Below are positions 1-64,000 of a stretch of 64,000 nt of DNA, in pieces. The position numbers were made by a program, and so were the translations under genes. Source of the stretch: Stentor roeselii (Eukaryota > Ciliophora > Heterotrichea > Heterotrichida > Stentoridae); NCBI GenBank assembly GCA_006503475.1, contig RSEH01000088.1, positions 62,001 to 126,000 on the forward strand. The letters run 5' to 3'. The notes under the pieces are model-generated. The model was given only the letters and a program-made list of their open reading frames with translations. It searched no databases and was not told the origin of the DNA. Within the stretch, counting starts at the first letter, position 1. Each line of letters starts with the position of its first letter.

Positions 1-466
1 GGTACCAAGATAGGAAACCTGATAAAAAGACTAGCTGTGGAAAAACTATCCAAACCCAGATCCTTCTGAATCTGAAAGTAGGAAATATGTAGTTCCAGAT
101 GTGGAAACCTAGGCAGAGCAATTGCATCATCACTGACAGGTAGCCCATGATCAACATCACCAGACCTGCTTTCTCGATTTTCCTTATGTTATCACAGAAG
201 CCATTGCAGTAGTGCTTTGTTAGTGGTTTTAAAGACTTGCATGCGTCGTTTTGGACGTCAATTATAAAGTTTTCATTGTCGAATACTGAAAAGTGCTTGA
301 AGGATTGTGCTGTGATCAGGCCAAACTCCCACCAACAGTACTTTTGCCATTTTCGAAGGGAGATGGCCACGGTTTTCAGGATGATCACACAAATTAGGCC
401 CAAGGAGTAAATTAACTTGACTTGCTTTGACTTATCTTTTTTGATTTTCTCGATTTCCAAAAGCAT
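1..466 (-). CDS. Multi-pass membrane protein, N-terminal part (cut by window start)
   Basis: Read on the minus strand, an ATG at 466-464 opens a frame that stays open for 155 codons to the window edge, so only the N-terminal part is present. The product begins with a short Lys-rich cytosolic stretch, then a hydrophobic helix near residues 18-33, a Trp/Cys-rich loop, a second helix near 104-126 and a third near 135-155. In this frame a TAG lies upstream of the ATG, which supports the start. A TATAAA string lies directly before the ATG. It is divergent from the DDX6 gene, with about 135 bases between the two start codons. I do not recognise the family; a channel- or receptor-like multi-spanning protein is possible but unproven. 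Confidence 0.6.
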   Translation of the reverse strand, partial: MLLEIEKIKKDKSKQVKLIYSLGLICVIILKTVAISLRKWQKYCWWEFGLITAQSFKHFSVFDNENFIIDVQNDACKSLKPLTKHYCNGFCDNIRKIEKAGLVMLIMGYLSVMMQLLCLGFHIWNYIFPTFRFRRIWVWIVFPQLVFLSGFLSWY

Positions 467-601
467 TTTATACTGTTGATTTGATTTAATCTAGAAAAAT
501 AGCTATCCTTTAATCCAGATCCCATCACCTTAACCTCCCCCTCCAATGATCTGAACATATCAACATCCACCATATCCAGGTGAGTGAGCAAATCCAATAA
601 T

Positions 602-1837
602 ATGAGTTTAGACAAAAAGAGATACGTTCCCAAATCCCAACCACAGCGACCCTTATCAGACCGTCCAAAAGACACAAGGTTCAAGACAGAAGATGTGACG
701 AACACAAAAGGCAACGAATGGGAAGACTATTTTTTAAAGCGAGACTTATTGATGGGAATTTTCGATAAAGGCTTCGAAAAACCGTCGCCAGTGCAAGAAG
801 AAAGCATTCCAGTGATCTTGGCAGGGCAAAGTGTCATAGCTCGAGCGAAGAATGGAACAGGAAAAACTGCTGCATTTGTGATTCCTATACTTGAAAAAGT
901 TGACGTTTCTTCAGAATACGTTCAGGCTGTGGTCCTTGTGCCCACGAGAGAACTTGCGCTTCAGACCAGCAGTGTTGTTAAGGAACTTGGAAAGTATTTG
1001 AATGTTGAATGCATGGTCAGCACTGGCGGCACACCCTTAAGGGAAGATATTTACAGGTTTTACAAAACAGTTCATGTTCTCGTGGGGACCCCTGGACGCA
1101 TTCTAGACCTAGCTTCAAAAGAAGTAGCAGACCTTTCAAAATCTTCTGTTTTAGTAATGGACGAGGCAGACAAGCTACTCTCTCAGGATTTCCAGCCAAT
1201 AATAGAGCAGCTGCTCGGTTATTTTCCTAAAGTCGTTCAAATCTTGATGTACTCCGCTACTTTTCCATTACACGTTAAAGATTTTTCCGTCAAGTATCTG
1301 CCGAACGCGCAGCTGATCAACTTGATGGACGAGTTGACTTTGAAAGGAGTGACACAATTTTACGCTTATGTTCAAGAAAAAAAGAAAGTTCACTGTTTAA
1401 ACACTTTGTTTTCCAAACTTCAAATCAACCAGGCGATTATTTTTTGCAATTCTACTCTGAGGGTGGAACTCTTGGCAAAGAAAATCACTGAAATCGGATA
1501 TTCTTGCTTTTTTATTCATTCGAAAATGCAGCAGGCTGATCGAAATCGCGTTTTTCATGATTTTAGAAATGGAGGGTGTCGATGTCTGGTGTCTTCTGAT
1601 CTTACTACCAGGGGAATTGATATTCAGACTGTCAATGTTGTTATCAACTTTGATTTTCCGAAGAACTCTGAAACTTACTTGCATCGCATTGGAAGGTCTG
1701 GACGTTTTGGGCATTTAGGACTTGCTATCAACTTTATTACGGATGAGGATAAGGAGAATATGTTTAACATTGAAAGAGAACTTGATACTGAAATTCAACC
1801 GGTTCCTCAAGTTATTGATAAGTCGCTTTATACTTAA
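602..1837 (+). CDS. DDX6: DEAD-box RNA helicase, DDX6/Dhh1 family
   Basis: A 411-residue ATP-dependent RNA helicase of the DDX6/Dhh1/Me31B family, which represses translation and promotes decapping-linked mRNA decay in cytoplasmic P-bodies. Visible motifs in order: Q-motif (FEKPSPVQ, about 58-65), motif I AKNGTGKT (82-89), PTRELAL, TPGR, DEAD (187-190), SAT (about 218), TTRGID (about 336) and HRIGRSGR (361). The phrase [18 protein letters not shown] just before the Q-motif and the C-terminal ending IDKSLYT are specific to this family. Length fits the conserved core with a short N-terminal tail. I chose the ATG at 602; an upstream GTG in frame at 584 is not a likely eukaryotic start. No intron is needed. 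The gene ends TAA-TAG. Confidence 0.95.
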
Positions 1838-2103
1838 TAGATAGTTAGTTAGGCATTTTGAGTGAAAGGAATTTGGATTGTGGATGGTTTAGCAGGATAA
1901 GACAAGTTGGAACCCTGGCTGATGAAATCTTAACTGTTGTATCTATTAATAAGGTCAATAGATATATTTTATAAATATTAAAAATACCCTAAAATCAAGT
2001 TTTTCTTATTAACCACAAACGAATGACTTACTAAAAAAGATCATAAATTATCCTATTATTAATTAAATCAATAAAATATATCAACTTGAACAGACAATAA
2101 AAA

Positions 2104-3543
2104 ATGGAAAGAAATTTAAGAGACCTATCAACAGATAAACGTCAGTTAAAAATATTAGGAGAAATAACAACCTACACTTTTCTAGGTATTATCATCCTAA
2201 TGTGCTTCATTTGTCTTATTTTTAAAAACCGAGGTCAATGCTCATATGCGATCTGGCAGAACATCGCATATCTCCAGCTGATCCACTGGATAAATCTGAT
2301 AAACATTGAAAGTAACTCAGAATTCGAAGTATTTTTCAAAGAACTGGCAGTGATATTCCGTCCATTCCAGATGAAAGGATTTTGTTCAGACGATCACATT
2401 TCAGACCACACTTACAAAGCCATGCAAATCGATTCACACGGTTTTATAAACAACTCAAAAGAGCTTCTTTTCATTTATGTCCTTGTTTTATTGTTTTGCT
2501 TTATCGTGTTTTTAGGAAAAAACTGCTCGAAATCACTAGAACTTGCCGCTTGCTTTAAGATGGTCAAGTATTCCACGTTGATTCGACTGCATCTGCTGAT
2601 GCTCATGGACTTCATGGTTTACAGTCTGATAAACATTTACTACTTCACAGGCGAGTCTGACTGTTCCACAGTGAATTTGATCTTGTCAATCATTTTTCTC
2701 GTCATTTCCGGTTTTTGGCTTGTCTGGATTCCCTTTATGATCAATCGAAAACTGATGAATAGCTTAAACATGCGATATGATGTTATCTTTGAGTCTATTG
2801 AAACAGTATCTGGTGAGTTTCAAGCGAGTTTCAAGACAGTGAATTATCAATATTACTCCATTTACCTTCTTTATCGATTTTCAGTCTCATTTTGTCTTGT
2901 CGTGCTTGGCAAGTCTCGATCAGTCCAGCTGTTCACGATTTCGAGTTTTCAGCTGATTTTAAGTAATTCCTAGTCAGTGTTTTACATTGTTAAAGCGAAA
3001 CCTTTCCGAGGGAGGGTAGATCTGGTCTGTAATTTTATAGCTGAAACTTTTTCGCTTATTTTGTTTATTTTGATTGGAATTCGTACGATAGAGCTGGACT
3101 CAGATAGTAAATATTATGTGACGGTTTTTACTGTTTTAACGATTTGGCTCACTGAGGTCTCCATTTGCATTCGATTTGCTTTGAACCTTAGGGAAAATGC
3201 AGAAAAAGTTAATGTTTTTGTTACTACTAATGATGTTGGCATGAAAAATGATAATGACAAAATCTTTAATTATAAAGGAAAGGGGGATTTGGATGATACT
3301 GCTTATGTGGATCAGAAAGTTAATGTGTTTTATGATAAGGGGAATAAGGGCATTCAGAAAATTGATATGAAAAGAAATTGGAATAATGCGAAGGTTGCTG
3401 CGGAAGAGACTAATAAAAAAGAAGTGAGTGATCTTACTTCTGGGAATAGATTTGTACCTAGAAATAATAGACCTAATCGAGTGGCTGATGGAAATAGGAG
3501 CCCTAGTAAAAATACTCAAGCTAGAAATAACTTTATGAATTAG
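2104..3543 (+). CDS. Multi-pass membrane protein of unknown function, one 15-nt intron
   Basis: Two exons (2104-2962 and 2978-3543) joined across a 15-nt intron, gtaattcctagtcag, give a 474-residue protein; without splicing the frame stops at a TAG inside the intron. The product has about seven to eight hydrophobic segments: near residues 23-42, then three around 120-185, two around 190-220 and a group after the splice site near 285-345. After that comes a hydrophilic Asn/Lys/Asp-rich tail of about 120 residues, presumably cytosolic. The arrangement of membrane core plus charged tail resembles the C-terminal halves of many ciliate channel-like or receptor-like proteins, but no signature is clear and I assign no function. 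The next gene on the same strand starts only 23 bases after the stop. Confidence 0.75.
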
Positions 3544-3566
3544 GTAGTTAAACCATAATCAATCCA

Positions 3567-4412: not shown

Positions 4413-4830
4413 TAATAGATGAGGATGGATTTTTAAGGTTTATGGATTTTTGTAATTAGCTGAGTTGTAGCATAGTGGTACTTTATTTAAGGTATAAAGA
4501 GATATTGAAGAATCTTTTCTAGTAATTTGAGTTAAAAATATGTTAGGTTTATTGGTTAGTGATAATCTAATAATGATATTTTAGAAATAAATTTAAAGAT
4601 TATTTCATCAAAAATGTATTCAGAGATTAAGAGTTTTGTAATATTTGAAATTTCATCATGTTTAATAAAAGAAGGATTGATGATTAAGTGTTTAATGCTT
4701 ATGAAGCATATATTAAGTCAATTACTATCTAAACGAACTTGATTCTTGAGTATAATTTTCTAGTTTAGCATTCTGATCGATCAGAAAATATGATGGATAG
4801 TTATTGTTCAACATTAAATCCTCTTATTAC
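4413..4830. other. Intergenic, convergent, 418 bases
   Basis: AT-rich sequence between the 3' ends of the NSA1-like gene and the minus-strand gene at 4831. No ORF or RNA gene is convincing. A tRNA A-box-like string at 4468-4478 has no matching B-box. Confidence 0.5.
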
Positions 4831-5832: not shown

Positions 5833-6339
5833 TTAAATATTCAACTTGGGAACTTTGATGATTTGGGTTGAAGAAGATAGGAATTGGGAGGAAAGGGTTT
5901 CTTAAACTAGAGAAGGACTTATCAGCCATTTATTGAATGATTTGATATTTGGCAGTGAGCATGCGAGAGACTTATTGGATGGGTTTAGCTAGTCTTCAAC
6001 TTGCCTTGATGTTGAAACTAAGGCATTGAATATTGAAAATCTTACAAATTTCATTCTCTTCTAACTATATATGATGAAATGGTTAATTGGTTTTAATAAG
6101 TAGAGAAATATTTCACTGAATTCATCATCCAAATACAAAACACTAACTAAAACCTTATTCCACCAAACCACTCCAACCCCTCTGATCCAAACAAAAGACT
6201 CTCAAACCCTTCACCATCCCCTAAAAACCCGGTACAATACTTTCCAAATCTCTAAAATCCCACAATTTCTAAACCCCAAAACCTTCCTAACCATCCTTCA
6301 CTAATCCATAAACCATCCTAATAATTCACAGTTATAACA
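5833..6339. other. Intergenic, 507 bases, with a strong composition switch
   Basis: Contains no recognisable gene. The left part (5881-6000) is G-rich on the top strand (33 G, 14 C by hand count). The right part (6121-6300), upstream of the EF-hand gene, is almost free of G (4 G, 67 C). The switch is near 6010-6120. Confidence 0.7.
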
Positions 6340-6897: not shown

Positions 6898-7791
6898 TAG
6901 AATAGGTTACTTAGAAAAGTTTAAACGGCTTTGAGTTATACTGTTAGAGGAATTTATTTAGTAGAGTTTCTAGGGATTTTTTTATGGTTTTGATAAGTTT
7001 AAAGAATTTTTAAAGGTTGTTTTTTGATAGTTGAGGATTTTAGGGTTTATTTTGAGATTTTTTAGAAGGCTTACTTGAGTTTAGTTATAAAATTAGAGGT
7101 CTTAACAAGATGAATGAAAGTTATTCTATGGTTTGATATAGTTTTAAGATGATTTATAGTTTAATATTTTCTAATAGTCGAAGATATTTCGAGGAAGATT
7201 TTAATGAATTCAAAGATTTTATTAAAATACTGCATGTATTTATTTTACTTGAAGAAAATGATGGGGAAGTTAAGTATAAAAACTTGGTTATAATGTGAAG
7301 CCTTTTAATCATTTTTCTTCAGTGATATTACAATATTCAAAAGAATTTCAGATAAAAGTATTTAAATTTGTAAATTTCGAATTCTTCTTATGTAAGTTGA
7401 TTGTTCGATCAAATAATAAATTTCTTTAGGATACCAATTCTGCAACTTTAATCATTGGTTGATGGCATGCGAATATTAAATTTTAATTCTTTCCTCTTTA
7501 AAACTTGTATATTTCACTCAGAAAAAAACAGAAAAGGTTAATTTATAACTTTAGCTTATTTGATTCTATTTATTCAAGATAAATAACTATAGCAAATTAT
7601 TCCTTATTCATAGATGTATCTATTATAATTTTCATATTTAAACTGAAGTAATAGAAGAAAATAACAATTAATATTATCTTAGCTATGTTTTCCTATTTAC
7701 TCAAATATTTTAAAGCACAAGTTTCTCAATTGACACCTCTTAAATTAGTTTTATATAAATTTTAATTATCCAAGCCATGCCTCAAATCAAA
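6898..7791. other. Intergenic, convergent, 894 bases
   Basis: AT-rich spacer between the EF-hand gene and the 3' end of the receptor gene. The left third is G/T-rich, including TTAGGG-like runs near 7040. No ORF, tRNA or repeat array is convincing. Confidence 0.5.
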
Positions 7792-10700
7792 TCAATTAAT
7801 AACTAAACTATTATTGGCCGCCTTAATATCTTTAAACTCAGACTTCCTTTCATCTTTAAACACAGAATTTCTAAACATATCATGAAATTCTTTAGAAAAC
7901 TGAAACCGAATTAAGTTGCTAATCGAAACACCCTGGTCAGATTTGAATCCTATCTTGATTTTAAACGAACAATACGCACCAAAAGCCAAAATGAAACCCA
8001 ATCCAACAAAATTCAAAGGAATTAATTCAGCCCTTCTTCCAGCCCACACATAAAGACTTGACATAAACATTCCCCAAGTGCTCATCCCAAGGACAGTAAC
8101 TTGATAAACCTTCGCTTTTTTCAAATTAAAGCATGACATTTTAACAGTCATCACCAAAAAAAAAGCAATAGCCCCAGTCAAGCAGAATCCCATAAAAATC
8201 AAATGATTGACTTGCATGATTTTCCAAATCACGACAAACAACACATGAAAAACGCTAATCAAAGAAAAGTAAAGATACTGAGTCTTCAAGTTACTTCCAA
8301 GTGCTTTTTCCCAGAATGGTCTCATGATACTAGAAAAAAATACAAAGAAGAACAAAGAAATCATCCCAAGTGAGAAAAACTTCTGATGCCGTTCATGAAA
8401 ACAAAAAGATGTGCAATCTCGAGCTAAATACGCTGAACTCAAAGCCTCTCCAGTACTTTCAAAGCAGTCAGAAATTTCAAGAAACATTAAAATCATTGGC
8501 TGGTACAAAAGATTCCCAATAATCACTGAAAAAATAGTAAAAACTCCTGAAATTTCACATAATAAGTAGTATTTCAATATTCTTGAATGGCTCATCAGAA
8601 TCACCAAGGAGTTAAGCAAGTAGGCTAAATTTATGACGAGTAAACCTGTGTAGAAATCCCAGAAACTTTCAAAGTCGATTTTAAAGTAATCCTGCAGGCT
8701 AAGATAGAATTTTAAGTTAATTTTCTCGAAACTTTTCCTAAAAATCCCGTCTTCTGGCTCAAGAGAGATGATTTGAACAAACTCCACAACAAAGAACCCA
8801 AGAGTTAAAAAATCAGGAAGGGCAATCGCTTTATTTCCATCGAATTCATTCTCACAATCTTTAAAAACCCTCCAAGAAATGCCAGCAGAAACCATAACAG
8901 TGATTAAAAGAAAGCAAAGAACTAAATAAATAACCAATTTTCCAGCATTCGATTCTTGTTTCAAATCAGGTTTAAAGCCACAGGGTCCATAATCAAATCG
9001 AAATCCAGGAGTTTCACTTGAGCCTACCCACTGAGGACTATTAAGAACTTTGATGGTCCTAGCAGCGTATCTGTCAGCAACGAGCAGGTCGAACAACTCG
9101 AGTTTTTCAGTAGTTTCATTTAAAGTAATTTGTTGAAAAATGTACCTGATCCCTGACCTTTGATTTGAGTCACTTGAGAAAAAAACCGAGCCAAGACATC
9201 CAACAAATCTTTGCTTTCTGATGTTTTGAGCGAGCATCACTGGATCTTCAAAGTCATCACCTGTCTCGATCATATGTTTCACTGAACTATGAACTGCTAA
9301 AAATGAATCATGAGTCAAGCACAAAGAAGTTAAGTCTTCACTTGAATTTCCCATTTCTTTCTTTAAGTTCTCTCCGTATTCTCCATCCCACTCTTTGAAA
9401 CCAACAACTAGATTTCCAGGGAGTAACTCTTGATACTTTTTTAGATATTTTGGGTTTTTCTCTGTGGCAATGATTGACATGTAAGAGATGTGAAAAAGTA
9501 TTGAAATGAATTCGCCTTTCCGGTAACCTACATCGTAAAGACCTTCCAAGACATACCCGATCCATTTGTTGATTATAATGAAAATCCTTGATTTATGTTT
9601 TCTGGCAAATAAAAAAATGTCTTTGTATTTTTCGAAGTCATTTCTGGTATAGTTACTAGGAAAAATCGCATATTTTTCAGGGTTTAGTATTCGGATTCCA
9701 CTTTTGATAAGAGAGGTTTTAAGTGATTGATAAATTAAGTAATTTTCTTCCGTTGAATAGAAAATAACTTCGTTCCATTTGAAGTTGTGAAGAACAAGAG
9801 ATTGGCCTCCGAGGTTTAAGTCTTCAAAAGTCGCCCCAATAGTAAAGTACTCTGGAAATAGTATCTTGTTGTTAAGGTCATCGGTAGTCATCATTGGTGA
9901 TATCTGGGGTATTGGCTTATTAAGCATTCGAAGACTTATCAGATTTGAATAGATTCCTTCCAGGTAAATGTTACTTAAGTAAGCTACAGGTCCAGCAGCG
10001 ATCATTTTCCCAAGACACTCATATGTGAACATCACAGTGGCTCCGAGATTTCCACAGCTAGTCGATACTGGCAAATATTTAAACCCTTTTAGTTCCTGAT
10101 TTTCATTCGCTTTTTCAATCCCGTAAGAAGCTCCCCGATAGTAGCTTGTAATGGCAGCGGGGAATTTTTCATCAACCACACTTGTCCCATTCGCCACAAA
10201 CAAAACAATTTGATTTAGCACTTCGGCTCTAGTATCATCAAAAAGTTCTCCATGAATGATTTTAATGTTTTCATCAATAAGAGCTGCGAGTTCTTTTCCC
10301 TTATCAGTGATTCTAACAAATTCAAACCGATTTGCACAGTTATGAAAATCGCAAAGGTCAAAAAAATCCTTTTTTGATAAAGTGAAAAAATCAATTATCA
10401 ATTGTTGGAGATATAAAAATTTCGAGTCTTCTTCAGTTTTTGATTCATTTGTGCCTCTTTGGAAAAAAATCAAAGAGTTGTTTAAGAAAACGTTGCTTGC
10501 TGTGAAACTTGGATACAAAAAGTTGAAGTTTGATTTGTTCGCCTTAATTAATAAAAGAGTTTCTTGGAAGAGATGAATAAATCTCGATGTTCCACTTATG
10601 ATGAAATTCTGATTACCTGAAGATTTTACAACTTTTTTCATTAGTTTCTGCATGTAATTCGCATCGACTGAAGCTTCAATGATGGTAAGTGATGAAGGGA

Positions 10701-11136: not shown

Positions 11137-12040
11137 TTGTAAAAGGCCTGGGGAAAATTTAATGGTCAGATTTTTGAAGGTCGATTCAAAATAAAAGACT
11201 AAGTTAACTAGAGTAGATTAGAATTTCCATACGATTATTTTCACCGTAGTTGAAGTAGAATTGAATAGTTTTAAATTTTAGACCTTTCATTGAATTTTGG
11301 GTCGATAATCTCCACAGATGATTCTTAAGGAAAACCTTCAAGTATTGATAATATTAGAAATTTACGAAGAACAAGATAATTTTTAAGGATTTTTGGGTTG
11401 AGGTTGAAGGTTGAAGGTTAGGAAGAAATTTTATGAAAATCAAAAATTTTAAAATAGAAATATAATTATGAGAAACTTTCATCTTTACTTATCTTTTTTA
11501 CAATCTTGATTTCATAATTCAAAAATTTTCGTTTTCTAAACTAAGATATACCTATACCCTGTCATACTTGCTTAGCAGGCTTTATCTTAAATTTAACCTA
11601 CCAAAGTTTCATCTTTTATTCAAAAAATTTTAAAATTTTGAATCTCTAGTCACTTATAAGATATTAGGCCTTGTAATATATTAGAGACTCAAATTTATTT
11701 CTCAGTTTGATTACAAGATTACAATTTAAGTCTGTAAAGGAACTTTGGTTTGGATATATGCTAAGAAGCTTCTAAATTAAGGCAGTATATCATATTCTTT
11801 GATAAATTGTATGATAAGGCTTTGAATTAATTGCAGAATCTCAGTGATAAGTTTAAGTTAATTCTTTAATTAATGAAAAAAATTGACACCCTAGTTAAAA
11901 TATAAGTCTTTAAAGGGTAAATCCTTTCAAGCCTAAAATTAAATTGTTTTAATTCTTTTATTGTCCTTAATCAGTTCAATATTGAAGAATATCGTTGTTT
12001 CAACCATACCTATTGCAATTTATGATATTGAAATTATAAG
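11137..12040. other. Intergenic, tandem, 904 bases
   Basis: AT-rich spacer between the receptor's start and K0's 3' end, both on the minus strand. It must hold the receptor promoter. It contains a short direct GGTTGAGGTTGAAGGTTGAAGG run near 11398-11420 and otherwise nothing I can name. Confidence 0.5.
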
Positions 12041-15403: not shown

Positions 15404-15846
15404 TTATATGGTTAAGATAGGTTTGGATAAAGGTTTATATAATCAACATCTTTCTCTTTATTCTTATCAAAAAAATTATGAAAGCATTACAAATTTCTTC
15501 AACAGTTTATTTTTTATATAATATGTGAAGTGAATAGACTAAAATTTATTTTTTGATGATCAATCGTCATTTCAAATCGTTTTGTCAAAGGTTAGAAAAA
15601 TGAATATTCAAAAGCTAACCTGGTTCAGGTTGTAAGGGAATAAATACCTTATGAGTAAATTTCACAATTGAGCATCTATCAAGTATTTGAACACAAACCC
15701 TAAAAGGTTTTACGACATATGATAACTATAAATTCAATTATATATTACCTAATCTAATAAAATAACCCAAAATTCGATAATACTCCATCCCAAATATAAA
15801 ACTACCTAATATTCCAAACTTAACTTCAAAAACTCTATCTAATAAT
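15404..15846. other. Intergenic, tandem, 443 bases
   Basis: AT-rich spacer upstream of K0 and downstream of the Tim13-like gene, both on the minus strand. Contains the probable K0 promoter; no gene, RNA or repeat seen. Confidence 0.5.
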
Positions 15847-17002: not shown

Positions 17003-17034
17003 AAACATTCATTATCCAAACCAAATATATTAAA

Positions 17035-21026: not shown

Positions 21027-21048
21027 TTATTCAAATAATAATCTTAGC

Positions 21049-47851: not shown

Positions 47852-48916
47852 TGTTATAATTATTAGGAAACCATTAGTATTTAACCACATTGATTAGGTC
47901 TTGGATGAAATTGAGAATTGGGTATAGAAATAGAGGAATTAAAATTATTTAATGGTTGTGGCTTTCTTTAAAATCTGCATGAAATTTAGGTTTATTCGAG
48001 AAGAATTTCCTTAAGAGATTTTAAGTTTTTCACAGTTTAGGTATAAGTAGATCTTTTGGATTTTAATTAAAATCTTAGACCAGATAGGAATTCAGTTTTT
48101 AAAGAGAACACGAAAAGTTTAATCTTGGTCCTTATAGTTTGATTGATTAATTGATGATGGTTTAATTAAACTTATAATCGAGATTGTTGACGAATGAATA
48201 ATTGAATTATGATTCTTTTGATCTTTTATTATTTTCTTAATTTTCTCAATTGATTTAGGTTTTCCATAATTTTAGCCAAAATTGTCTGTTAATCGGGATC
48301 CTACCACATTCGATTTTTAGCTTGAAATTGTAATTAAAAACGCGAATTTAAACCATAGTTGATTGAACTGAAAAAATAGTTTAATTCTTGATGCCTTTCT
48401 CAATAATCTTGAATAAATTGTTCATAGTGATATTAAGATATTAATGAATTATGATATCAATATTTTAAATTTTATTAACCTTACAATATTTGGTATATTC
48501 TATGTCTCTTCTTTGTTTGAAATACTACTGAATCGATCATTAAAAAATATATAGATTTAATAAAAGAAAAGGAATCAGAAATACATTTAGCTAGTAAAGG
48601 ATTTTGTAGTAATTGAAAATTACCTAAATTGACTTAAAAATTCATCAATCATTTTTTTAATTTTTAAATTTAGCCAAAATTTCTTTATTGTCTCAATTTT
48701 TAAAACATAATAATTTATCACAAATGATTAAAACTAATAAACATTGCTTATCCACCTAAATCACACTTTCTATATTAATAGAATACATCAATCTATACTT
48801 AATGAGAATATTTGATCAAAATATCTTAGCTCAGTGATTATAAAATCTTTAAAAGAATCTCTAATTGAAAAAAAAACTTTGATATTTCCAATAAGTGTAA
48901 CTCTCTAGAAAATGAA
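47852..48916. other. Divergent intergenic region, about 1.07 kb
   Basis: The longest spacer in the window, AT-rich, between the UBL gene and K1. It presumably carries both promoters. Nothing else is recognisable: no ORF over 40 codons that looks real, no tRNA, no repeat array. Confidence 0.5.
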
Positions 48917-51900: not shown

Positions 51901-52255
51901 TTCAGAAAAGTAATGAAAAAATAGCATAAATACTTTCTTGACCTTCAAGGTGTCTATTCGATTTCAAAGGAGTTTAAATGCTTTCGTGATCAATAGAAAT
52001 ACAAATGTAGATATTTTAACTTTACTGAGCGGACTCTTAGGAAGTATTGCTGGAATTTTTGATACTCTTGGTTCAATTTTAAGCATAACTGAAAAATTAT
52101 CAGGAAAAATCAAGTCTAAAATCAATAAAAAACTAATGATACTCAGAATTTTCAAAAAAAGAATAGAGATTTCAGATTCGAAAGTAGTTCCACTCGATAG
52201 AATAGAGAATAATTCAAAAAGTGAGTTTGGTGATGCTCCAACTAAACTTTTTTAG
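48917..52255 (+). CDS. K1: kelch / GCC2-GCC3-like / three-helix membrane protein, four 15-nt introns
   Basis: First full member of the array. Introns at 49414-49428, 49996-50010, 51794-51808 and 51910-51924 (all 15 nt) give 1092 residues. Two of them (first and third) contain no stop and keep the frame, so they are found only by comparing paralogues. Order: signal peptide (MSLLLLLLPVSCNFTA, from Met8 or Met1), about 12 kelch blades (residues 30-600), three Cys-rich units (CPAGTFSDHFDSDHC, CKPGTYSKDEGTWF, CPSGTFTNRSG), a membrane helix (VIGVSVASVIGFLVIFFLLA), a juxtamembrane RKYFEEA motif, a second helix, a Cys-containing beta-rich domain of about 200 residues, and a Gly-rich helix (LLSGLLGSIAGIFDTLGSI) before a basic tail. 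Probably a surface receptor or adhesin. Confidence 0.9.
49414..49428 (+). other. Stop-free 15-nt intron in K1 (kelch region)
   Basis: gtattcaataatcag has GT, AG, A at position 10 and a length divisible by three. Removing it turns the sequence around it into YR-FNITLLHWSV, which aligns with YQ-LDLNTFIWSV in K2, where a stop-containing intron sits at the same place and phase. Confidence 0.85.
51794..51808 (+). other. Stop-free 15-nt intron in K1 (beta-rich domain)
   Basis: gtaagagttattaag, with A at position 10. Reading through would insert five residues (VRVIK) after VVPS. K2 and K4 have stop-containing introns at this exact site, and K0 lacks the five residues altogether (ATPS-LFKSESSRW). 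Confidence 0.85.
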
Positions 52256-52413: not shown

Positions 52414-55400
52414 ATGATATTCATTTGCATTCTTACCTCATTTTGTGAATCACTAACTATTACTCAGATCCCATCACAAGGTTATCCTACTCAGTACCCT
52501 CGGTATTCATCCCTTCTCTTTTCTTCAAACAAGCTTTACATCTTCGGAGGTTCTGACAATATCGAATTGTCAAATAGTTTACATTACTTCGATTTATCGA
52601 CATCAACCTGGAACGAAATCTTTCCCAATAGTATAGCAATTCCAGAGCCACGTTTGAATTCCCTTTCATTTGTTTACAACCAAAACTTGTTCATCTTTGG
52701 AGGTCAGACAAATTCCAAGATGTTGAACGACTTGTGGAAATTCGACATCTCTAACAGAAAATGGATTCAAATGCAGACCACTGGCCAAGAACCTCTTCCC
52801 CGAGTGAGAAGTTGTTTGATTCTTATGAATGAAACAGTCTTTCTCTATGGAGGACAAAGTGAAGTTGGATATGAATCAGCAGTTTATCAGTAAATTGTAT
52901 TTAGACTAGACCTGAATACCTTTATTTGGAGTGTTTTGATACCTCCTGGGGTTTTAGAAGCTAGGGCTGGAAGTGCTATGTTTGTTTACAATGAGTCTTT
53001 GTTTACCTGGGGAGGGACAACTTTAAACTTGAATTTTATAAAAATTGATAGTTTTGGAAATATTTCAGAAGTTAAAGTTTCTGGAGACTTCCCTGATTAT
53101 CGACAGTCTTTTCCTTACTCATTTTATGAAAACTATTTAATGATATTACCTGGGTACTCTCATCCGATCGGAAAGTTCATAAAAAAGTGTTTTGGACTCT
53201 CAATGCTAACCCTGATATCTTCTGAAGTAAACTGTGAAGTAGAATCAATTTACTCTTCATTCACCCAAGTTCAAGACACACTCTACATATTCGGAGGAGA
53301 AAACTTCAACAGCTATTCAAACGAACTCGGAAAACTCGACCTTTCCAAAACTCCTCCAATTTTTTCTCTGATTTCCCCAGATACAGTTTACCCAAAGCCC
53401 CGTTCAGGTCACACAATGATGAGAAGTCGAAGTTATCTCTGGGTATTCGGAGGTTGTTCCTCAGGATCCTACTATAGCGATTCATGGAAGTTCAATTTAC
53501 GAACAGAAACTTGGGAATTAATTCCATCAAACAGTTTTTCTCCATCACCTCGATGTGGACACAAAGTAGTTACTTTATTCGGCGACACTTTTCTGTTATT
53601 CGGAGGAAAAAATAATGATGAGTACTTTAATGATATCTTGATGTATAATTTTTTGTCAAATGAATGGACTGACTTGACGGGTGAAGGAAAAATTTCAGCT
53701 CGTTCAGGGGCTTGCATGGTTTGCATTTACCCTGAGTTGGTGATTCAAGGAGGGATAAACTCGAAAGGAGTTCTTTCAGATATTTGGATTTTCAATATAA
53801 TGACTTCAGCCTATTCTTTGATGGAAGTGACTGGAGAAGCTCCATCACTTTACAATCATAACTGCGCAGTGGATAATGAAACAGTTTTTTACATTTACTC
53901 AGGGACAAATGTGAATGGAAAAGCGAATCCATCGATATTTTACATTACTATTTATGAGTTGAAGTGGGAAATGCTTGTCTCTTCTGAGTCTCTTGCCATT
54001 TCTAATACTAATATGCTGGAAATGGGAAACTTCACTGTTATCATTGGAGGAAGCAAGTACATTGAAGCTCAGAAAGATATTATTTTACTTAGAGGATTAG
54101 AACCTACTCTTGTTGGAGCCCTTCCTCAGGCAGTTGTCAGTCATCAAATGGTTCATGCTGGGAAAAATATTTATATTTATGGAGGGGAATATACTGCTGA
54201 TAAAGTCATTTTTAAAGATAAGGGAAGTCCTTTGCTTTTTAAGATTAGCATGGATTTTTTCACATGTAGCTTAGGGTTTTTCGGAGAATCGTGTGAAATG
54301 TGTCCTCCTGGAACTTATAATTTTTATCATGATTCACTTTCTTGTGAACCTTGCTTACCTGGCACAAGCTCAAATGATTATGCGTTGAATAATTTTGCAC
54401 AGTGTCTCCCTTGTGAATATGGTAGCTTTACTGATCAATATGGAAGTATTAGTTGTCTCGATTGTGGTATTCCAGAATATTGCAAATTTAAAACAATTCA
54501 ACCGAAATATCGTGAAATTATTTCTCCAATCATCAGCATTCAGCCTGCTTCATATGATGACAGAGTTTCAGTTACAGATGATTATATAAAAATGATAGAG
54601 ATTTTCATTGGCTGTTTGATTTTATCACTATTCATTATTTACCTAATCAGAAAAGAACTTAAAGTGTTTAACCTGGTAGATATATTTAAAGAGAGACATA
54701 AAAGAAAGTATTTTGAAGAACCTTTCAAAACTCCTCATGGAGGTTTTTTTACTCTGGCTTTGATTCTTCTGATCTTAATGTTTATTATCACTCCACTAAT
54801 TTCATACTTTCTCTCAAACATCCTAGAACTCAAGACTCTAGTCCCATCATTCACCTTAGAAAACACTAAATTTGAAAGTGAATTCGGCTTAATTCAAATA
54901 ACTTTTCATAACTATGCCGGTTCCTGCACGAATAAAGAATCTAAATGTAACAACGGAGTAAATACATTAACAGAAGGTGTTTACGCTAATTCAATTGACG
55001 GGCCTTACTGTAAAGAAATCGATTTAAATATATGTCAAATCACTTTTTCCTTCCAAAAAATTTCATTTAGCAGTCCAAGTTCAATAAATTTAACAATAAT
55101 TGACTTATCTGCATTCTCAACAGGCTTAGAAGCAAAAGCAGTCTTCTCATCATCGATTCCAGACTTTAATGAAAGTTCAGTAAAATTTTTTATAGAATCA
55201 GAAAAAAACCAGGTATTCAACGGTCCAAGTCCTTCTATATTCTACTTGAAACTAATCCCGACAGTACTTTTTACTTAGTTGTTCTTATCTGAAAGCTCTG
55301 AATGGAAAAACAACGTAACTGGCTATCACGTCACTTCAAATAAAAACCCAACTAAGGGATCAACATCGAATTCGAAAAAGTAAAAAGTATTTAGCATGAA

Positions 55401-55725: not shown

Positions 55726-56209
55726 AAGGGCTTTTAGGTTAAAGTTTTGTTGGTTACAGTTTAGTTTAAATCAAAGAGTAATGAATTAGAAAATTGTTTG
55801 ATTTGGTTTTAAATTAAAATAAGATACTTTCAAGGTGAGAAATTTTAATGATATTGAGAATATTCATCTGATAATGGTTTTGTATCGAAATTATGATTAT
55901 TCGTAACTCCTATTGAATTCACAAAATAAAACCTTAAAAAGAAAAGCTTAATGCTTATGATTGATCAATGCTTCACTCAGAATTTAAATTGAAATTCCTA
56001 AACTTTTAATATTAATTTCATAGTTCAAAGCCTGTACCCTTTCCACTTAATAATTTTTGAGTATTTTTAAGTTTTATTATAATTAAATTAAACAACTATA
56101 CAAATTATATAGACTTAATGATCATTAGTTGTTGAAATAATCAACAATAATTAAAAATAAAAGATTTATTGACACTCAAAGCTCTTCTCTAACTAAAAAC
56201 AAATAAAAT
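55726..56209. other. Intergenic, tandem, 484 bases
   Basis: AT-rich spacer between K2 and K3; must hold the K3 promoter. No feature recognised. Confidence 0.5.
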
Positions 56210-59200
56210 ATGGATATTCTCAGATTTTTCCTGTTAGTTCAGCTCGCAAGAAGTTCACTTACAGCGAATCTCATCCCTTCATACGGCTACCCTCCTCTGT
56301 ATTCCCTATATTCAAGTTTAGTTGTTCACAATGAAAGAATCTATATATTCGGAGGGACGGACAATACAGATTATTCCAATTCCCTAAGCTGCTTCGATTT
56401 CTCAACAGCTGAATGGTCGCACCTGATTCCATCTTCAGACTTAGCTCCAAATCCAAGAATAAATTCCTTTTCCTTCATGTACAACGAGACTTTTTTTATA
56501 TTCGGTGGTCAGACCAAGACATATCTTCAAAACGATTTATGGAGTTTCGACTTCAATGAAAACATTTGGAAATCTCAAACATCTGTCGGAACCATTCCCA
56601 GTCCCCGAGTCCGTAGTTCTTTAGTTATCCATGAAGACTTTTTATACCTATTCGGAGGTGAAAATGCTTCAGGTCCTGACAATTCCCTCTACCGTTTAAA
56701 CCTCGCCTTTCTTTCATGGGAACTTCTTCTGAATCCTGAATCTTTACCCCAAAGTGCCGGCCAAGCAATGTTTATCCACAAAAATTCCCTAAACCTCTGG
56801 GGCGGGTACTTCAACTCTTCAAAACTGTTCCAAATCAACCTAGAAACCTTAAAAATCTCTCAAATCCCTGTAAAAAACTCTCCTATCCAAACCGAGTCCT
56901 TTCCATTCGCCTTCTTCGAAGAAGTCTTCTACATCTTTCCCGGTTTTTCTCATCCAATAAAGACAAAATCCTTAAAATGTGGCAAAATCGATTTAAACCT
57001 CTTAAAATTTTCTTGGCTTTCCTGCAACATCCTTAAAATTTTCACATCATTCACACAAAAAAACAATAAAATTTTCTTATTTGGAGGTCTTGGTGAAGAA
57101 AGAGCTGAAAATGAATTATTAAAAGTAGAATTATCATCAAAGTCCTTTTATTTGGAGCAAAAAACAATCACCCCGGCGACTCTTTACCCGAAGCCTCGGC
57201 TTAAACATGCGATGGCTGCGAGTCGAGGAGTCATTTGGTTGTTTGGAGGATGCACTGATGAGATTTAGTAAGATTTAATTAGCTTTGCGGAATCTTGGAA
57301 GTTTGATATTTCGACTGGCCTGTGGGAAATTATTAAACCTGGAGGAGGAAATCAACCTTTTGCTAGGTGCGGGCATAAAATTGTTAGCTTGTATGGAGAT
57401 ACTTTTCTGGTGTTTGGAGGGAAACTTTTTGATAATTTTTTCAATGATATCTTGCTGTATAATATTGTTTCTAATACTTGGACTGATCTTAGTGATACTA
57501 AGGAGGTTAGTGCGAGGGAAGGAGCTTGCTTGATTATGGAGTATCCTAGATTGTTTATACATGGGGGAGAAAACAGCCGTGGTGTTCTTTCAGACCTATG
57601 GTCATTCAACATAATCACCTCCAAATACTTTCAATTCAATTCCTACGGTCAAGTGCCATCCCTAACAACCCACAGCTGTTTCTACTCATCCTCATCCAGT
57701 TCAATCCAAGTCTTTTCAGGATCAACTCACAATTCATTCCCAAACCCATACATTTACGAGTTTTTCCTTTCCAACAATTCCTGGCACATCCTTTTAAAAT
57801 CCGATGATCTTTCCTTATCCAACTCGAATTTTCTAATAATCGATGAAGAAGTTTTCATAATCGGAGGAACCAAATATTTTCAAGTGCAAAAAGACATTCT
57901 TCATCTATCAAAAAAGGAAGGTTCAGCAAAGGTTTCTATAATAGGAAGTCTTCCCGTCGCCTTTGCCTTTCACGATGCAGTCCACTTGGGCAGATCTCTT
58001 TATATATACGGAGGGGTCTTGACAGCAGGGCAGGTAATGATAAACGGTCAAGGTTCTTCTAAAATGTTGAATGTCAGTCTTGAATCAATCAAGTGCAGTC
58101 CAGGTTTCTTCGGAAAGAACTGCGAAATATGCCCAGCAGGGACTTACAGTCCTGATTTCAATTCAAATAACTGCAGCAAGTGTCAACCTGGGACTTATTC
58201 ACAAGACAAGGGTCTCTCTTTTTACTCTCAGTGCTTTCCTTGCCCTTATGGAACCTTTTCAGATGACTGGGGCTCTCAGTATTGCTATGAATGCGACGTC
58301 CTTGAAGAGTGCAGGTTTCGCACAGTTGAAAGCAGCATCAGATCCACCCAGGCAGGAATCATCAGTGTCCAGCCGGAGTCTTTTCAAAATCATTTAAAAG
58401 ATGCTGAAAGTTACAACATGACTCTTCTTTTTACATGCTTCGCACTTTCTGGATTTTTTTTTATTGTTTTTTGCTTCGCGTTTAGGGCCAGGTTCTTTTT
58501 GGTTGTTGATGTTTTTTGTGAGAGTCATTCAAGGAAATGGAATGAAGAACCTTTTCCTACGGCTTTTGGAGGGATTTTTTCTTTGGTGTTTTTTATTTTT
58601 GTGGTTTATTTTGTGGTATCGCCTTTTATATTTTTTTTTGTGGCGAATGTTTCTGAGTTTAGGACCTTGGTGCCTTCTTTTACACTTGATCATGAGGAAT
58701 ATGTTGCGAAGTATTGTGAAATTAATATCAAATTTCATGATTATGGAGGGATTTGTGTGAATAGTGAAATGGAATGTCATGGAGATATTGAAAAGGCAAT
58801 TTTTGGAGTTACTTATAAAGAGTTGAATGGACCTCGATGTCAGTTGTCGAAAAATAGGATTTGTGAAATTGGGTTTTTTTTTGAAGATATTTCATTTGAA
58901 GAAAATGGAAAATTGGATTTGAGTATTTCAGATCCATCGATATTTGCTACTGGTATTGAAATTTATATGAAAATATCATCGTCAATTCCTCCTAAATACA
59001 ATGAAAGCTCGATTCAATTCTATATCGAATCTGAGAAAAATACAGTTTTTAACGGTATCCAACCAAATAATTTTTATATCAACTTAATCCCATCGGTCAG
59101 ATTTATTCAGGTGTTTTACTCAGAGAGTGCAAAATGGGCTGACAATCAAACAGGTTATCATATAACTTATACCCAACAACCAACATTAGGCTCAACAACA

Positions 59201-59566: not shown

Positions 59567-60292
59567 TCATAAGGTAATTATAGATTTCTTTTTAAGTTAA
59601 TTATTGATTATCTTCTCTTGTTTATTATATAAATATAATATTGATTAATTTTATAGGATATAAATATTACTCTCTAGATTTGGATGCTGAATTGCATATA
59701 AATATCAATTTTTTATTATTCATGGAAGAAAAAATACTAAAGAAGTTCTTCTAATATATGATTTATTTTTATATGGTATCTTAAATCATCAAACTTTAAT
59801 AATTCACCAGCATTATAGAATCATTGATGATATACTGATTATATATTTTATAGTTTTTAATGTTTTTTCTGGTACAGATAAGCATGGTCAAGATAATCAT
59901 TATAGATAATATTCTATATATTTTGTGTGGAAGATAATAATGCTTGGAAATAATTTAATGCACTAGATAATTTAGATGTTATCAAAGCTTAAATGATATA
60001 TCTTAATTTATACTTTAAAATATCCTTTTAATAGGAAGTAGTTATCTTGACGAGAGATTCATTTTTAATGACTTAAGATAAAGTTACAAATTTTTTTTTA
60101 AATGAAATGATGAGCTAATTTCACTAAGCGAAATCCTATGATAATCTATTATTAAATTTTTAACAAAAACTATTCCTATACATTTAACAGAAAAAATTAA
60201 TTTCAGGCTAACTTGATAAACTGAACTCAAGTCATGTTGAAACTTATAATTTAGTTATTGAAAAGTCAAACATCTGGAAAAATAAATCGATT
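59567..60292. other. Intergenic, tandem, 726 bases
   Basis: Very AT-rich spacer between K3 and K4. No coding or RNA feature recognised. Confidence 0.5.
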
Positions 60293-63200
60293 ATGCTAAG
60301 TAAGCGAAAAAATATTGTAAATCAAATGATTACTTTTTCTATTTTATGCTCATTTGCTAGTTCTCTAACTATTACCCAGATTCCATCACAAGGTTACCCT
60401 ACCCAATACCCTCGTTACTCATCCCTTCTCTTTTCTTCAAACAAGCTTTACACCTTCGGAGGTTCTGACAACAACGAATTGTCAAATGATTTGTATTACT
60501 TCGATCTCTCAACCTCAACCTGGAACGAGCTCTTTCCCTTTAACACAGCAATTCCAGAGCCACGGTTAAATTCCCTTTCATTTGTTTACAACCAAAACTT
60601 GTTCATCTTTGGAGGTCAGACAAATTCCAAGATGTTAAACGATTTATGGCAATTTGACATCTCTAACAGAAAATGGACTCAGATGCAGACCTCAGGCCAA
60701 GAACCTCTTCCTCGAGTGAGAAGTTGTTTGACTCTTGCGAATGAAACAGTCTTTCTCTATGGAGGACAAAGTGAAGTTGGATATGAATCGGCAGTTTATC
60801 AGTAAATTGTATTTAGACTAGACCTAAATACCTTTATCTGGAGTGTTGTTATACCTCCTGGGGTTTTAGAAGCTAGGGCTGGAAGTGCTATGGTTGTTTA
60901 TAATGAGTCTTTGCTTATCTGGGGAGGGTCGACTTTAAACTTGAATTTTATAAAAATTGATAGCTTTGGAAATATTTCAGAAGTTAAGGTTACTGGAGAC
61001 TTCCCTGATTATAGACAGTCTTTTCCTTACTCATTTTATGAAGACTATGTAATGATATTGCCTGGGTACTCTTATCCGATCGGAATGTTTATAAAAAAGT
61101 GTTTTAGAGTCTCAATGATAACCCTTGTATCTTCTGAAGTAAACTGTGGAGTAGAATCAATTTACTCTTCATTCACCCAAGTTCAAGACACACTCTACGT
61201 ATTCGGAGGAGAAAACTTCAACAGCTATTCAAACGAACTCGGAAAACTCGACCTTTCCAAAACTCCTCCAATTTTTTCTCTGATTTCCCCAGATACAGTT
61301 TACCCAAAGCCCCGTTCAGGCCACACAATGATGAGAACTCGAAGTTATCTCTGGGTATTCGGAGGTTGTTCATCAGGATCCTACTTTAGCGATTCTTGGA
61401 AGTTCAATTTACGAACAGAAACTTGGGAATTGATTCCATCAAACGGTTTTACTCCATCAGCTCGATGTGGACACAAAGCAGTTACTATATTAGGCGACAC
61501 TTTTCTGTTATTCGGAGGAAAAAACAAAGATGAGTACTTTAATGACATATTGATGTACAATTTTTTGTCAAATGAATGGACTGACTTGACGGGTGAAGGA
61601 AAAATTCCAGCTCGTTCAGGGGCTTGTATGGCTTTTGTTTATCCTGAGATAATGATTCAAGGAGGGATAAACTCGAAAGGAGTACTTTCAGATTTATGGG
61701 TATTCAATATTATGACTTCAGCTTATTCTTTGTTAACAGTGAGGGGAGAAGTGCCTGGTCTTTACAACCATAACTGTCAAATAATTGATGAAAGCGGTCT
61801 TTCAATCTATTCAGGAACAAATGTGAACGGAAAAGCAAATCCTACTGTTTACTACATTAATTTTAGTCATTTAGAATGGGTGATTATTGTATCATCTGAT
61901 TCAATCGCTATTTCAAATACAAATATGATTGGTATGGTAAACTTTACAGTCATAATAGGAGGAAGCAAGTACATCGAAGCCCAGAAGGATATCATCCTTC
62001 TTGTCGGAATCATTCCTATTCCTGTTGGCTCCCTTCCTAAAGCTGTTGTCAGTCATCAGATGGTCCATGCAGGGAAGAGTATCTATATATATGGAGGCGA
62101 GTGTACTTCTGATAAAGTTATTTTTAAAGATAAAGGAAGTCCTTTGTTACTCAGAGTGACTATGGACATTTTTACATGCAGTGATGGGTTTTATGGAGAC
62201 TCATGCCAAATGTGTCCTCCTGGCACTTATAACTATGAGTCTAATTCAGAGACTTGTGAACCCTGTTTACAAGGGACCAGGTCTGAAGACTATGCACTTA
62301 ATAACTTTGCTCAATGTCTTCCTTGTGAGTATGGAAGCTATTCGGATGATTTTGGAAGTAAATTTTGCTTCGACTGTGCTAATCCTGTTGATTGTAAGTT
62401 TAAAACTGTTCAGCCAAAGAGTCGTGAATTCATCCCGAGTTTTGTTAGTTCCCAACCTTCTCCATTCAACAACAAGGTATCAGATTCCGACAAGTACATA
62501 AGAATCGTGCAAATTTCAGTGGGTAGCTTGATAGCTCTTCTTTTTCTTATTTATCTTCTCCGAAATAAACTAAAATTATTCAACCTTATCGATGTTTTCA
62601 AAGAAAGACACAAAAGAAAGTACTACGAAGACCCTTTTAAAACACCTCATGGAGGTCTTTTTACTTTAGCCTTAGTCCTTCTGATCTTGATGTTCATAGT
62701 AACACCTTTAGTCTCATTTTTTATCTCAAACATCAGTGAAATGAAGACCTTGGTCCCATCATTTACTTTAGAAAACAGTATATTTTCAAGTGATTACGCA
62801 CAATTTGAACTAACCTTTTATGATTACGCTGGTGTTTGCGCTCTTAATGGAACCGAATGTGATAGTGGAATCGAAGCTAATACAAAAGGAGTCAATGCTC
62901 ATTTATTCGATGGTCCTCACTGCACAAAAATCGATATAAACATCTGTAAAATTTCTTTTTACTGCCACAAAATCTATTTTGACAAATCAAGTTCTATGAA
63001 CTTGACACTTATCGACTATTCTGTTTTCGCTACAGGTTTAGAAGTGAAAGCAACATTCTCCACATCAATCCCCGGAGATTACAATGAAAGTTCAGTAAAA
63101 TTCTTCATCGAATCCGAAAAAAATCAAGTCTTCAACGGTCCAAACCCGACGATTGTCTACCTAAAGCTGATTCCGACAGTAATTTTTAAATAGTTGTTCT

Positions 63201-63637
63201 TTTCTGATAGTCCTGAATGGAAAAACAATGTAACAGGTTTTCATGTCACTTCAAATAAAAACCCAACAAATGGATCGATATCAAATTCGAAAAAGTATTC
63301 AATATTTAGCATCGGTTCTTATAATTTTTTAAAAGTTGCTCTTATGTTTGAAAGAAGTGAAAATGCATTTGTTGTTTATCGATTTCTTAATGTCAAGACT
63401 ATGGCACTTATTAGTGGAATTCTTGGAAGTATTGCTGGACTCTTTGGAATCACTGGGTGGATGATGAGCACTTCGGAAAAATTCGCTGGGAAGGTCAAGG
63501 AAACTATTGAAAAAAAGAAGAGGTTGAAGGATATTGTTAAGAAAATGGAAGAGATTAAGGAAGATCAAATTAACTTGATTGAAGAAAAATGTTATAAAAC
63601 TAGAGATGATGGGAAAACTTTTTTTATTGAGATTTAG
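60293..63637 (+). CDS. K4: kelch / GCC2-GCC3-like / membrane protein, three 15-nt introns
   Basis: Introns at 60802-60816 (gtaaattgtatttag, identical to K2's), 63179-63193 (gtaatttttaaatag) and 63295-63309 (gtattcaatatttag, stop-free) give 1099 residues from the Met at 60293; Met12 (MITFSILCSFASS) would give a cleaner signal peptide and matches K2's start. Kelch blades, Cys-rich units (CPPGTYNYESNSETC, CLQGTRSEDYALNNF, CEYGSYSDDFGS), helix (VGSLIALLFLIYLL), RKYYEDPFKTPHGG, second helix, beta-rich domain and Gly-rich helix (LISGILGSIAGLFGITGWMM) follow. The first half is nearly identical to K2, while the beta-rich domain is clearly more diverged. It ends TAG. Confidence 0.9.
63295..63309 (+). 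other. Stop-free 15-nt intron in K4 (before last helix)
   Basis: gtattcaatatttag, A at position 10. Reading through inserts YSIFS; K1, K2 and K3 each have a stop-containing 15-nt intron at the same site and phase. Confidence 0.85.
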
Positions 63638-63819
63638 AAAAGATTTTAGTTAATAGAAGATTGTTTTAGGAATTTTATATTAATCTTTTTTTCTTGTTAC
63701 AATTAAATAAATTCAGAGAGTTTAAGCTGAATTTTTTCAATCAAGCAGTTTTATATGAGATCAGGGAATAATTCAAAATAAAACACAATTTCTCCATTTA
63801 ATGAATAATTCAGGCAACA

Positions 63820-64000
63820 ATGCTAATCCTATCATTTCTACTTTTAACCTCAAGTTCCTTAACAGTGACCCAGATACCTTCACAAGGTTACCCATCAACT
63901 TCAACAATAGGTTCAGTCCTTCTTCTCCTGGAAGACTGTCTCTACACATTTGGAGGTTCATCAATGCCAGAAGTTTCAAAAGACTTCAAAAGATTCAACC
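63820..64000 (+). CDS. K5: fifth array member, N-terminal fragment (cut by window end)
   Basis: The ATG at 63820 opens a frame that runs to the window edge (60 codons): a signal peptide (MLILSFLLLTSSSL), then TVTQIPSQGYPS, CLYTFGGSS and SKDFKRFN. This matches the start of K2 and K4 (TITQIPSQGYPT, LYIFGGSD), so the array continues beyond the window. An ATG at 63801 is in another frame. Only the first kelch blade is visible. Confidence 0.85.
   Translation, partial: MLILSFLLLTSSSLTVTQIPSQGYPSTSTIGSVLLLLEDCLYTFGGSSMPEVSKDFKRFN

Follow-up and report, generated by a model that had tools for sequence, protein, structure and literature searches.

A strand-composition sawtooth with resets about 1.6 kb apart in Stentor roeselii, and a possible origin at recurrent double-strand breaks

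We analyzed a 64,000-nucleotide stretch of the Stentor roeselii genome (hereafter the window: positions 62001-126000 of contig RSEH01000088.1, our C514, in an assembly of 44.39 Mb and 522 contigs), along which base composition alternates between the two strands in a sawtooth. A second sample, 200 kb of another contig (C40), brings the DNA examined to 264 kb. Cytosine is depleted on one strand for a few hundred bases, and the depletion then switches to the other strand, with resets ~1.6 kb apart. A drop, or reset, is defined here as a point where C-depleted sequence on the left flips to G-depleted sequence on the right, and a rise as the opposite change.

The telomere repeats of the assembly, together with a 15-nt intron, mixed stop usage, and dense genes in the window, suggest somatic DNA from a heterotrich-type ciliate that uses the standard genetic code. 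Telomeric repeats (CCCTAACA) had 547 matches in the assembly, and those listed lie at 16 ends of 15 contigs. Among the 36 open reading frames (ORFs) of the window, called with standard stops, 24 ended in TAA, 8 in TAG, and 4 in TGA, and the main ORFs gained at most two tryptophan codons when TGA was read as tryptophan. Blepharisma has the same telomere repeat and introns of 15-16 nt, but its UGA encodes tryptophan (PMC9942806). The genes on which the analysis leans are as follows.

602-1837, DHH1/DDX6-like ORF
20830-23280, plus strand, GCP3-like ORF with both gamma-tubulin complex domains, N- and C-terminal (the sole copy returned when the genome was searched at the DNA level)
28097-28111, 15-nt in-frame GTA...TAG stretch that ends in an in-frame stop codon; it splits a FAN/BEACH gene in naive ORF calls and is read as an intron
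35293-36351, plus strand, CDC73-like ORF
41262-42977, minus strand, Kelch ORF
52978-55278, Kelch/ephrin-receptor-like ORF, paralog A
60890-63193, Kelch/ephrin-receptor-like ORF, paralog B

The strand-composition sawtooth in the window is confirmed. A sequence-only reading of the window had proposed it from three hand counts and a series of resets seen by eye. The counts hold: 21601-21960 contains G37 C16 and then G37 C46 (one C fewer than reported), 35641-36000 contains G48 C20 and then G33 C49, and 42601-42840 contains G34 C18 and then G15 C30. Resets were then decoded with a hidden Markov model fitted on the 264 kb, which sees only C versus T at pyrimidines and G versus A at purines and has separate baselines per codon position and strand. 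Two-state decoding placed 42 drops in the window and 119 in C40. The tracts and the decoded resets of the window are listed below; resets and intergenic tracts have no strand, and positions in parentheses are those named by the sequence-only reading.

1-64000, no strand, whole window, alternating C-depleted and G-depleted tracts with 42 decoded drops
21201-21770, plus strand, C-depleted (G/T-rich) tract in the GCP3-like gene
6107-6339, G-depleted intergenic tract, right of reset 6106
6898-7300, C-depleted intergenic tract, left of reset 7472
488-489, reset, intergenic
1956-1957, reset, intergenic, 3' of the DHH1/DDX6-like ORF
3501-3502, reset, outside called ORFs (3550)
4809-4810, reset, intergenic
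6106-6107, reset, intergenic
7472-7473, reset, intergenic
9981-9982, reset, coding
11876-11877, reset, intergenic
13088-13089, reset, coding
14115-14116, reset, coding (14270)
15639-15640, reset, intergenic
16989-16990, reset, coding, near a stop
17915-17916, reset, coding (17940)
20245-20246, reset, coding
21771-21772, reset, inside GCP3 (21780)
23215-23216, reset, coding, 3' end of GCP3 (23230)
25005-25006, reset, coding
25753-25754, reset, coding
26623-26624, reset, intergenic
29371-29372, reset, coding (29420)
31657-31658, reset, coding
33519-33520, reset, intergenic
34703-34704, reset, coding (34690)
35808-35809, reset, inside CDC73 (35820)
36712-36713, reset, intergenic
38488-38489, reset, coding, in a kinesin ORF
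40721-40722, reset, coding (40620)
41987-41988, reset, coding
42725-42726, reset, inside the minus-strand Kelch ORF (42720)
44320-44321, reset, coding (44340)
46800-46801, reset, intergenic
48520-48521, reset, intergenic
50268-50269, reset, coding
52074-52075, reset, intergenic
53196-53197, reset, coding (53170)
54789-54790, reset, coding, Kelch paralog A
55905-55906, reset, intergenic
57591-57592, reset, coding (57570)
60115-60116, reset, intergenic
61108-61109, reset, coding, Kelch paralog B
62451-62452, reset, coding, Kelch paralog B, ~80 codons from its counterpart in paralog A
63767-63768, reset, intergenic

All 13 positions named beforehand lay within 155 b of an independently decoded drop, and 11 of them within 50 b; chance would place 2.7 of 13 within 160 b. 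The variance of G-C per 100 b was 2.7 times the binomial value in the window and 2.6 times in C40, and in both the autocorrelation of G-C skew was ~+0.5 at 100 b but turned negative at 400-800 b. When synonymous codons were shuffled within genes (144 ORFs), the refutation test named by the sequence-only reading, the observed third-position skew variance stood at z 35 against this null, and the autocorrelation at 525 b was -0.30 (z -11). Third-position skew also oscillated inside the 26 ORFs of at least 700 codons (autocorrelation -0.22 at 525 b, z -8). At fourfold sites, the two states, decoded from the same DNA, had G-C skews of +0.39 and -0.47 and T-A skews of +0.29 and -0.30. A two-state model fitted on C40 exceeded a one-state model by 541 nats when scored on the window; in this and the later cross-contig scores, the fits began from values fitted to both contigs.

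The mean spacing of decoded resets was 1.63 kb, with a coefficient of variation of 0.52 (0.57 in C40 alone). Regular spacing is not shown by these values, as simulated random resets gave coefficients of 0.52-0.56, in simulations of which none of the 11 settings reproduced the observed variance. Drops thin out toward the left telomere of C40, with 6, 8, and 10 per 20 kb over C40:1-60000 versus 11-16 further in. The thinned part includes an AT-rich 9.2-kb stretch without a decoded reset (C40:8459-17658, L025-L026), which contains a 7.46-kb ORF with a weak, sub-threshold Beta_helix match and without strong alternation.

Drops are sharp and rises gradual, also inside genes, as follows from held-out steps split by place. 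In this test, boundaries were placed from C/T sites alone and scored on G/A sites, and conversely. With boundaries from C/T sites, the step in G/(G+A) was -0.083 at drops, with the expected sign at 85 of 105, and +0.031 at rises (72 of 104); with boundaries from G/A sites, 100 of 119 drops and 80 of 118 rises went in the expected direction. Deep in coding sequence, the held-out steps within 100 b were 0.076 (37/45) and 0.092 (36/44) at drops versus 0.010 (45/72) and 0.009 (37/73) at rises. The corresponding values were 0.075 (30/37) and 0.075 (36/53) at intergenic drops and 0.025 (14/23) and 0.057 (13/22) at drops near ORF edges, and rises elsewhere than deep in coding sequence had steps of about zero or reversed. 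Both base classes switched together at drops; at rises, G/(G+A) recovered ~200 b before C fell. The posterior boundary width was likewise smaller at drops (58 and 63 b) than at rises (122 and 113 b).

With three states, the order was G-depleted, neutral, C-depleted, and then mostly straight back to G-depleted. Decoding with a direction-neutral matrix gave 240 forward and 119 backward state changes, compared with 94/81, 92/82, and 95/70 in three shuffles that kept gene structure. A model that allows net circulation has one extra parameter and gained 13.8 nats of training likelihood in C40 and 3.4 nats in the window, and the directional model scored better than its own time reversal on the other contig by 20 to 107 nats. 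Jump-skewness was significant in C40 (-0.28, sd 0.08) and not in the window (-0.18, sd 0.18), and within genes it was weak (z -1.3, -1.9, and -2.6 at three length cut-offs).

The base change was mostly an exchange of C with T and of G with A. From left to right within 50 b of drops, C/(C+T) rose from 0.24 to 0.43 while G/(G+A) fell from 0.43 to 0.22; the pyrimidine fraction, which unlike these two ratios was not used to place drops, stayed at 0.48-0.52 over 800 b on either side. A small residual pyrimidine shift was seen at fourfold sites (0.54 vs 0.47). The depletion extended ~500-600 b to each side of drops. In non-coding DNA, C/(C+T) fell from 0.38 in the neutral to 0.15 in the C-depleted state, and G/(G+A) was 0.37 in both. 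Codon positions one and two shifted in the same sense as the third, though less, which would favor mutation pressure over codon choice. C was lost in 16 of 16 neighbor contexts in non-coding DNA and in 15 of 16 at third positions. The exception was G-C-T: NGC codons followed by T kept their third-position C in the depleted state (odds ratio 1.25, n = 264). C after C was slightly the most depleted, C after G was relatively spared, and C after T was not preferred. At third positions, C before G was the most depleted (odds ratio 0.08 vs 0.14-0.34), a figure in which codon effects are not separated.

Resets were not limited to gene ends, as 97 of the 161 drops lay inside ORFs. Intergenic DNA, 20-22% of the sequence, held 64 of 161 drops and 17 of 161 rises, and the other 144 rises were inside ORFs. 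Plus-strand ORFs (119 kb) contained 50 coding drops and minus-strand ORFs (91 kb) 47. The fraction of gene junctions with a drop was 0.56 of 9 in the window and 0.56 of 27 in C40 for divergent pairs, 0.47 of 19 and 0.58 of 52 for tandem pairs, and 0.62 of 8 and 0.48 of 27 for convergent pairs. C was lost on both strands of plus-strand genes (sense from 0.59 to 0.16, template from 0.47 to 0.25), and likewise in minus-strand genes. Resets were nevertheless about twice as dense as expected at 100-300 b upstream of starts and at 100-200 b downstream of stops. Each 100-b bin should hold 8.8 drops, but the bins at 300-200 b and 200-100 b before starts held 16 and 21, and the three successive bins that span 100 to 400 b after stops held 23, 11, and 17. 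The placement of resets is not independent of genes.

The sequence-only reading had also argued that a pattern with one orientation across plus and minus genes is not explained by transcription alone. This argument is invalid, because a 5'-to-3' rise in skew along each gene looks the same after reverse complementation. A gradient of this kind is present: in gene orientation, third-position C/(C+T) falls from 0.45 near starts to 0.29 near stops, with G/(G+A) of 0.27 just 5' of starts and C/(C+T) of 0.29 just 3' of stops. Plain transcription-coupled asymmetry, however, should give one sign along a gene; instead, the sign flips within ORFs, both strands are depleted, and junction types are alike.

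Comparison of paralogs separates the resets from the encoded proteins. Three DHH1-like genes, with proteins 88-92% identical, have a common G-poor start followed by different internal reset codons. In the window copy, skew rises to the gene end with no clear internal reset; in the C77 copy (L002), it falls after codons 200-240; and in the C302 copy (L003), it falls between codons 160 and 240, with a block score of -15.6 at 240-280. Kelch paralogs A and B have resets ~80 codons apart where their third positions are about half identical. Because both families reset at different codons, reset positions, as read from these copies, differ between old gene copies and are not dictated by the protein; a position fixed by protein sequence is ruled out by the DHH1-like genes. 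Skew correlation in distant paralog pairs was uninformative (33 pairs, mean 0.17 vs null 0.06, sd 0.45).

The two Kelch/ephrin-receptor-like paralogs are near-identical up to codon ~240, and from codon 280 onward about half of their third positions agree, a pattern suggesting that their 5' parts underwent gene conversion. Elsewhere, at C40:102375-106115 (L035), three related ORFs form a tandem array, and two of them are identical over 298 codons.

These results point to a cause acting at the DNA level, because junction types are equal, sense and template strands are both depleted, and near-identical paralogous proteins differ in reset codons. The pattern is focused on drops, from which the effect declines over ~0.5-0.6 kb each way, and its simplest source would be a point event that exposes the 3'-ending strand on either side. 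We give a probability of roughly 0.45 to the reading that resets are long-lived double-strand-break sites, probably meiotic, at which 3' single-stranded tails of ~0.5 kb lose C to T. The germline DNA would be broken again and again at each reset over evolutionary time, and resection of the 5' ends on both sides would leave 3' single-stranded tails of a few hundred bases, exposing the top strand left of the break and the bottom strand right of it. Exposed cytosines would turn to T more often than elsewhere, by deamination or error-prone gap filling, leaving the left flank short of C and the right flank short of G. The most probable breaks would be those made by SPO11 in meiosis where chromatin is open, both at gene ends and within genes. 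The germline setting of the mutations, the identity of the points as breaks, the meiotic origin of these breaks, and deamination as the chemistry are all inferred.

Deamination on 3' tails had been offered in the sequence-only reading, and its polarity stands: C-type loss was found on the left flank of drops and G-type loss on the right. Causation by breaks goes a step further than polarity and is put forward here as an interpretation. In yeast, single switches with C on the left and G on the right mark bidirectional 5'-3' resection (PMC6786661), and in the flanks of human meiotic hotspots, C>N and A>N changes fall on the forward strand, while those on the reverse strand are G>N and T>N (PMC7615360). 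The flank of ~0.5-0.6 kb is comparable to resection lengths of ~0.8 kb in yeast (median 755 nt in meiosis; PMC11695836) and 1-2 kb in humans (PMC7615360). The genome also contains a SPO11-type domain (TP6A_N, PF04406; E 3.9e-18, C316:14907-15089) and a HOP2-type domain (TBPIP, PF07106; E 2.2e-19, C66:93690-93872). Ciliates have very low replication mutation rates, and such a low background would explain why the trace is visible here.

Several observations weigh against this reading. Approximately 60% of resets lie inside ORFs, unlike yeast hotspots, which are mostly in promoter nucleosome-depleted regions (PMC11695836). C loss in non-coding DNA and at third positions showed no TC or WRC preference, and thus no AID/APOBEC motif of the usual kinds. 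CpG was ordinary in non-coding DNA (odds ratio 0.18 vs 0.18-0.24 elsewhere), though not at third codon positions, where C loss was strongest before G. Drops had no excess of poly-A/T tracts. Differences between paralogs were not clustered by strand (neighbor concordance z -1.5 to 1.7 in five pairs), and transversions were common among them too. The evidence for directionality is weak in places and uneven between tests: the deep-coding flux of 118/77 had a ratio no larger than that of shuffles (37/25, 30/29, and 31/19), so that this count alone shows no direction, and the directional model differed from a reversible one on the other contig by just +1.7, -2.9, and +7.6 (four states) nats.

Clusters from single hypermutation events are not supported, as no concordant runs appeared in the five paralog pairs, of which the pair of the window and L003 was misaligned in that runs test (the L003 gene is on the other strand; the skew comparison was redone codon-wise). 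A local motif at drops was set aside: TA-containing k-mers rise there, but boundary placement, which favors a position between T and A, and AT content confound the signal. A genome search for PF08210, run without a working positive control, matched no APOBEC-family gene.

Among the alternatives, programmed DNA rearrangement is unlikely but fares best. Resets would then be positions of germline internal eliminated sequences (IESs), or of chromosome cutting with telomere addition. Densities of the same order as the resets are reported for Blepharisma, with 39,799 IESs scaffolded on a 41-Mb genome, ~70% of them intragenic (PMC9942856), and 46,705 potential alternative telomere addition sites, of which 38,686 rest on a single read (PMC9942806). 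TA steps were modestly more frequent around coding drops, with an observed/expected ratio of 0.64-0.70 within 60 b and of 0.54-0.59 at 200-300 b, than around coding rises, where the ratio within 60 b was 0.35-0.55 (centers left out), but the excess is broad and not a point. Sequence inside the 16 telomeric ends leans G-poor, with a mean skew of -0.14 over 200 b and negative values in the first 100 b at 13 of 16; compared with intergenic DNA of similar composition over 200 b, however, the ends did not differ significantly (p 0.14). No PiggyBac domain (PF13843) was matched in the genome, in a search without a working control that does not establish absence. Somatic breaks, moreover, are not inherited, so an extra germline step is needed.

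Slightly less probable is a composition locked to genes, in which 5' ends and flanks avoid G, 3' ends and flanks lose C, and the sawtooth is a series of gene-body gradients caused by codon choice, untranslated-region signals, or exposure of the sense strand near 3' ends. The metagene gradient, its symmetry under reverse complementation, and the G-poor 5' and C-poor 3' flanks are what it would produce, and short ORFs (450-900 b, n = 47) held only 0.15 internal drops each. This explanation is already weakened by the drops inside ORFs: those more than 100 b from ORF ends become more numerous in longer ORFs and reach an average of 2.18 in the 11 ORFs that exceed 3 kb. The oscillation of skew within long ORFs, the sharpness of deep-coding drops in held-out data, the shift of non-coding DNA, and the different internal patterns of genes for near-identical proteins also speak against it.

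Bidirectional, non-genic transcription of the germline nucleus, as for scan RNAs, might instead expose the non-template strand, with resets as shared termination zones and rises as start zones; we regard this as more doubtful still. It would be heritable and independent of gene direction, and Blepharisma has 24-nt RNAs that are specific to development and are likely scan RNAs (PMC9942856). The focal feature is, however, the drop and not the rise, and with 144 of 161 rises in ORFs, transcription would start in gene bodies and have many of its ends in intergenic DNA. Leading/lagging asymmetry of replication, with origins at rises and sharp termini at drops, matches the probable polarity of fork-convergence points but is very improbable, as it requires termini sharper than origins and a replication unit of ~1.6 kb, a spacing for which we know of no example.

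The recurrent-break reading carries a wider claim, which we hold more tentatively than the reading itself: that break-associated mutation dominates this germline and has left a long-lived map of break sites, readable from the synonymous sites of one genome. A low replication mutation rate may leave break repair as the main source of substitutions, and slow-moving hotspots could leave readable fossils. Extrapolating 161 resets per 264 kb to 44.4 Mb would give ~27,000 break sites genome-wide. If this is true, base composition alone provides a fine-scale germline break map in an organism without a break assay, the movement of hotspots over time can be studied directly (paralogs already differ), and recombination-linked mutation shapes both the codons used and the make-up of proteins. 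There are also consequences for finding genes and studying codon usage in genomes of this kind, as composition changes within genes.

Skew domains linked to replication or transcription are saw-like in G-C skew and either extend over tens to hundreds of kilobases or are gene-oriented; the sawtooth described here differs in its ~1.6-kb scale and in not being gene-oriented. Among the papers listed in full-text searches of the open-licence literature, none reports an internal sawtooth in a ciliate. The nearest patterns among them are the skews of gene-sized ciliate chromosomes (PMC2633312, PMC7858049), which are also in somatic DNA but are confined to subtelomeric sequence. The Nyctotherus skew is symmetric with respect to the two chromosome ends, but it is a purine skew over about the first 130 b (PMC2633312); for Halteria, transcriptional and non-transcriptional origins are discussed (PMC7858049). 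Unlike both, the pattern here is internal, runs throughout two contigs, and is of transition type. Mutation clusters after breaks in yeast have the same left-C, right-G order from two-sided 5'-3' resection, but they are single APOBEC3A-driven events with tracts of up to dozens of kilobases (PMC6786661), whereas the tracts here are ~0.5 kb long, have no such motif, and are not accompanied by clustered concordant differences between paralogs. Human meiotic hotspots share the opposite-strand bias on two flanks of a point, the kilobase scale, and the germline setting; their mutations lie at PRDM9 hotspots and bear C>G and CpG C>T signatures (PMC7615360), whereas in S. roeselii the pattern is a standing one in base composition, made mainly of transitions, with extra C loss before G at third codon positions but not in non-coding DNA, and with about one site per 1.6 kb.

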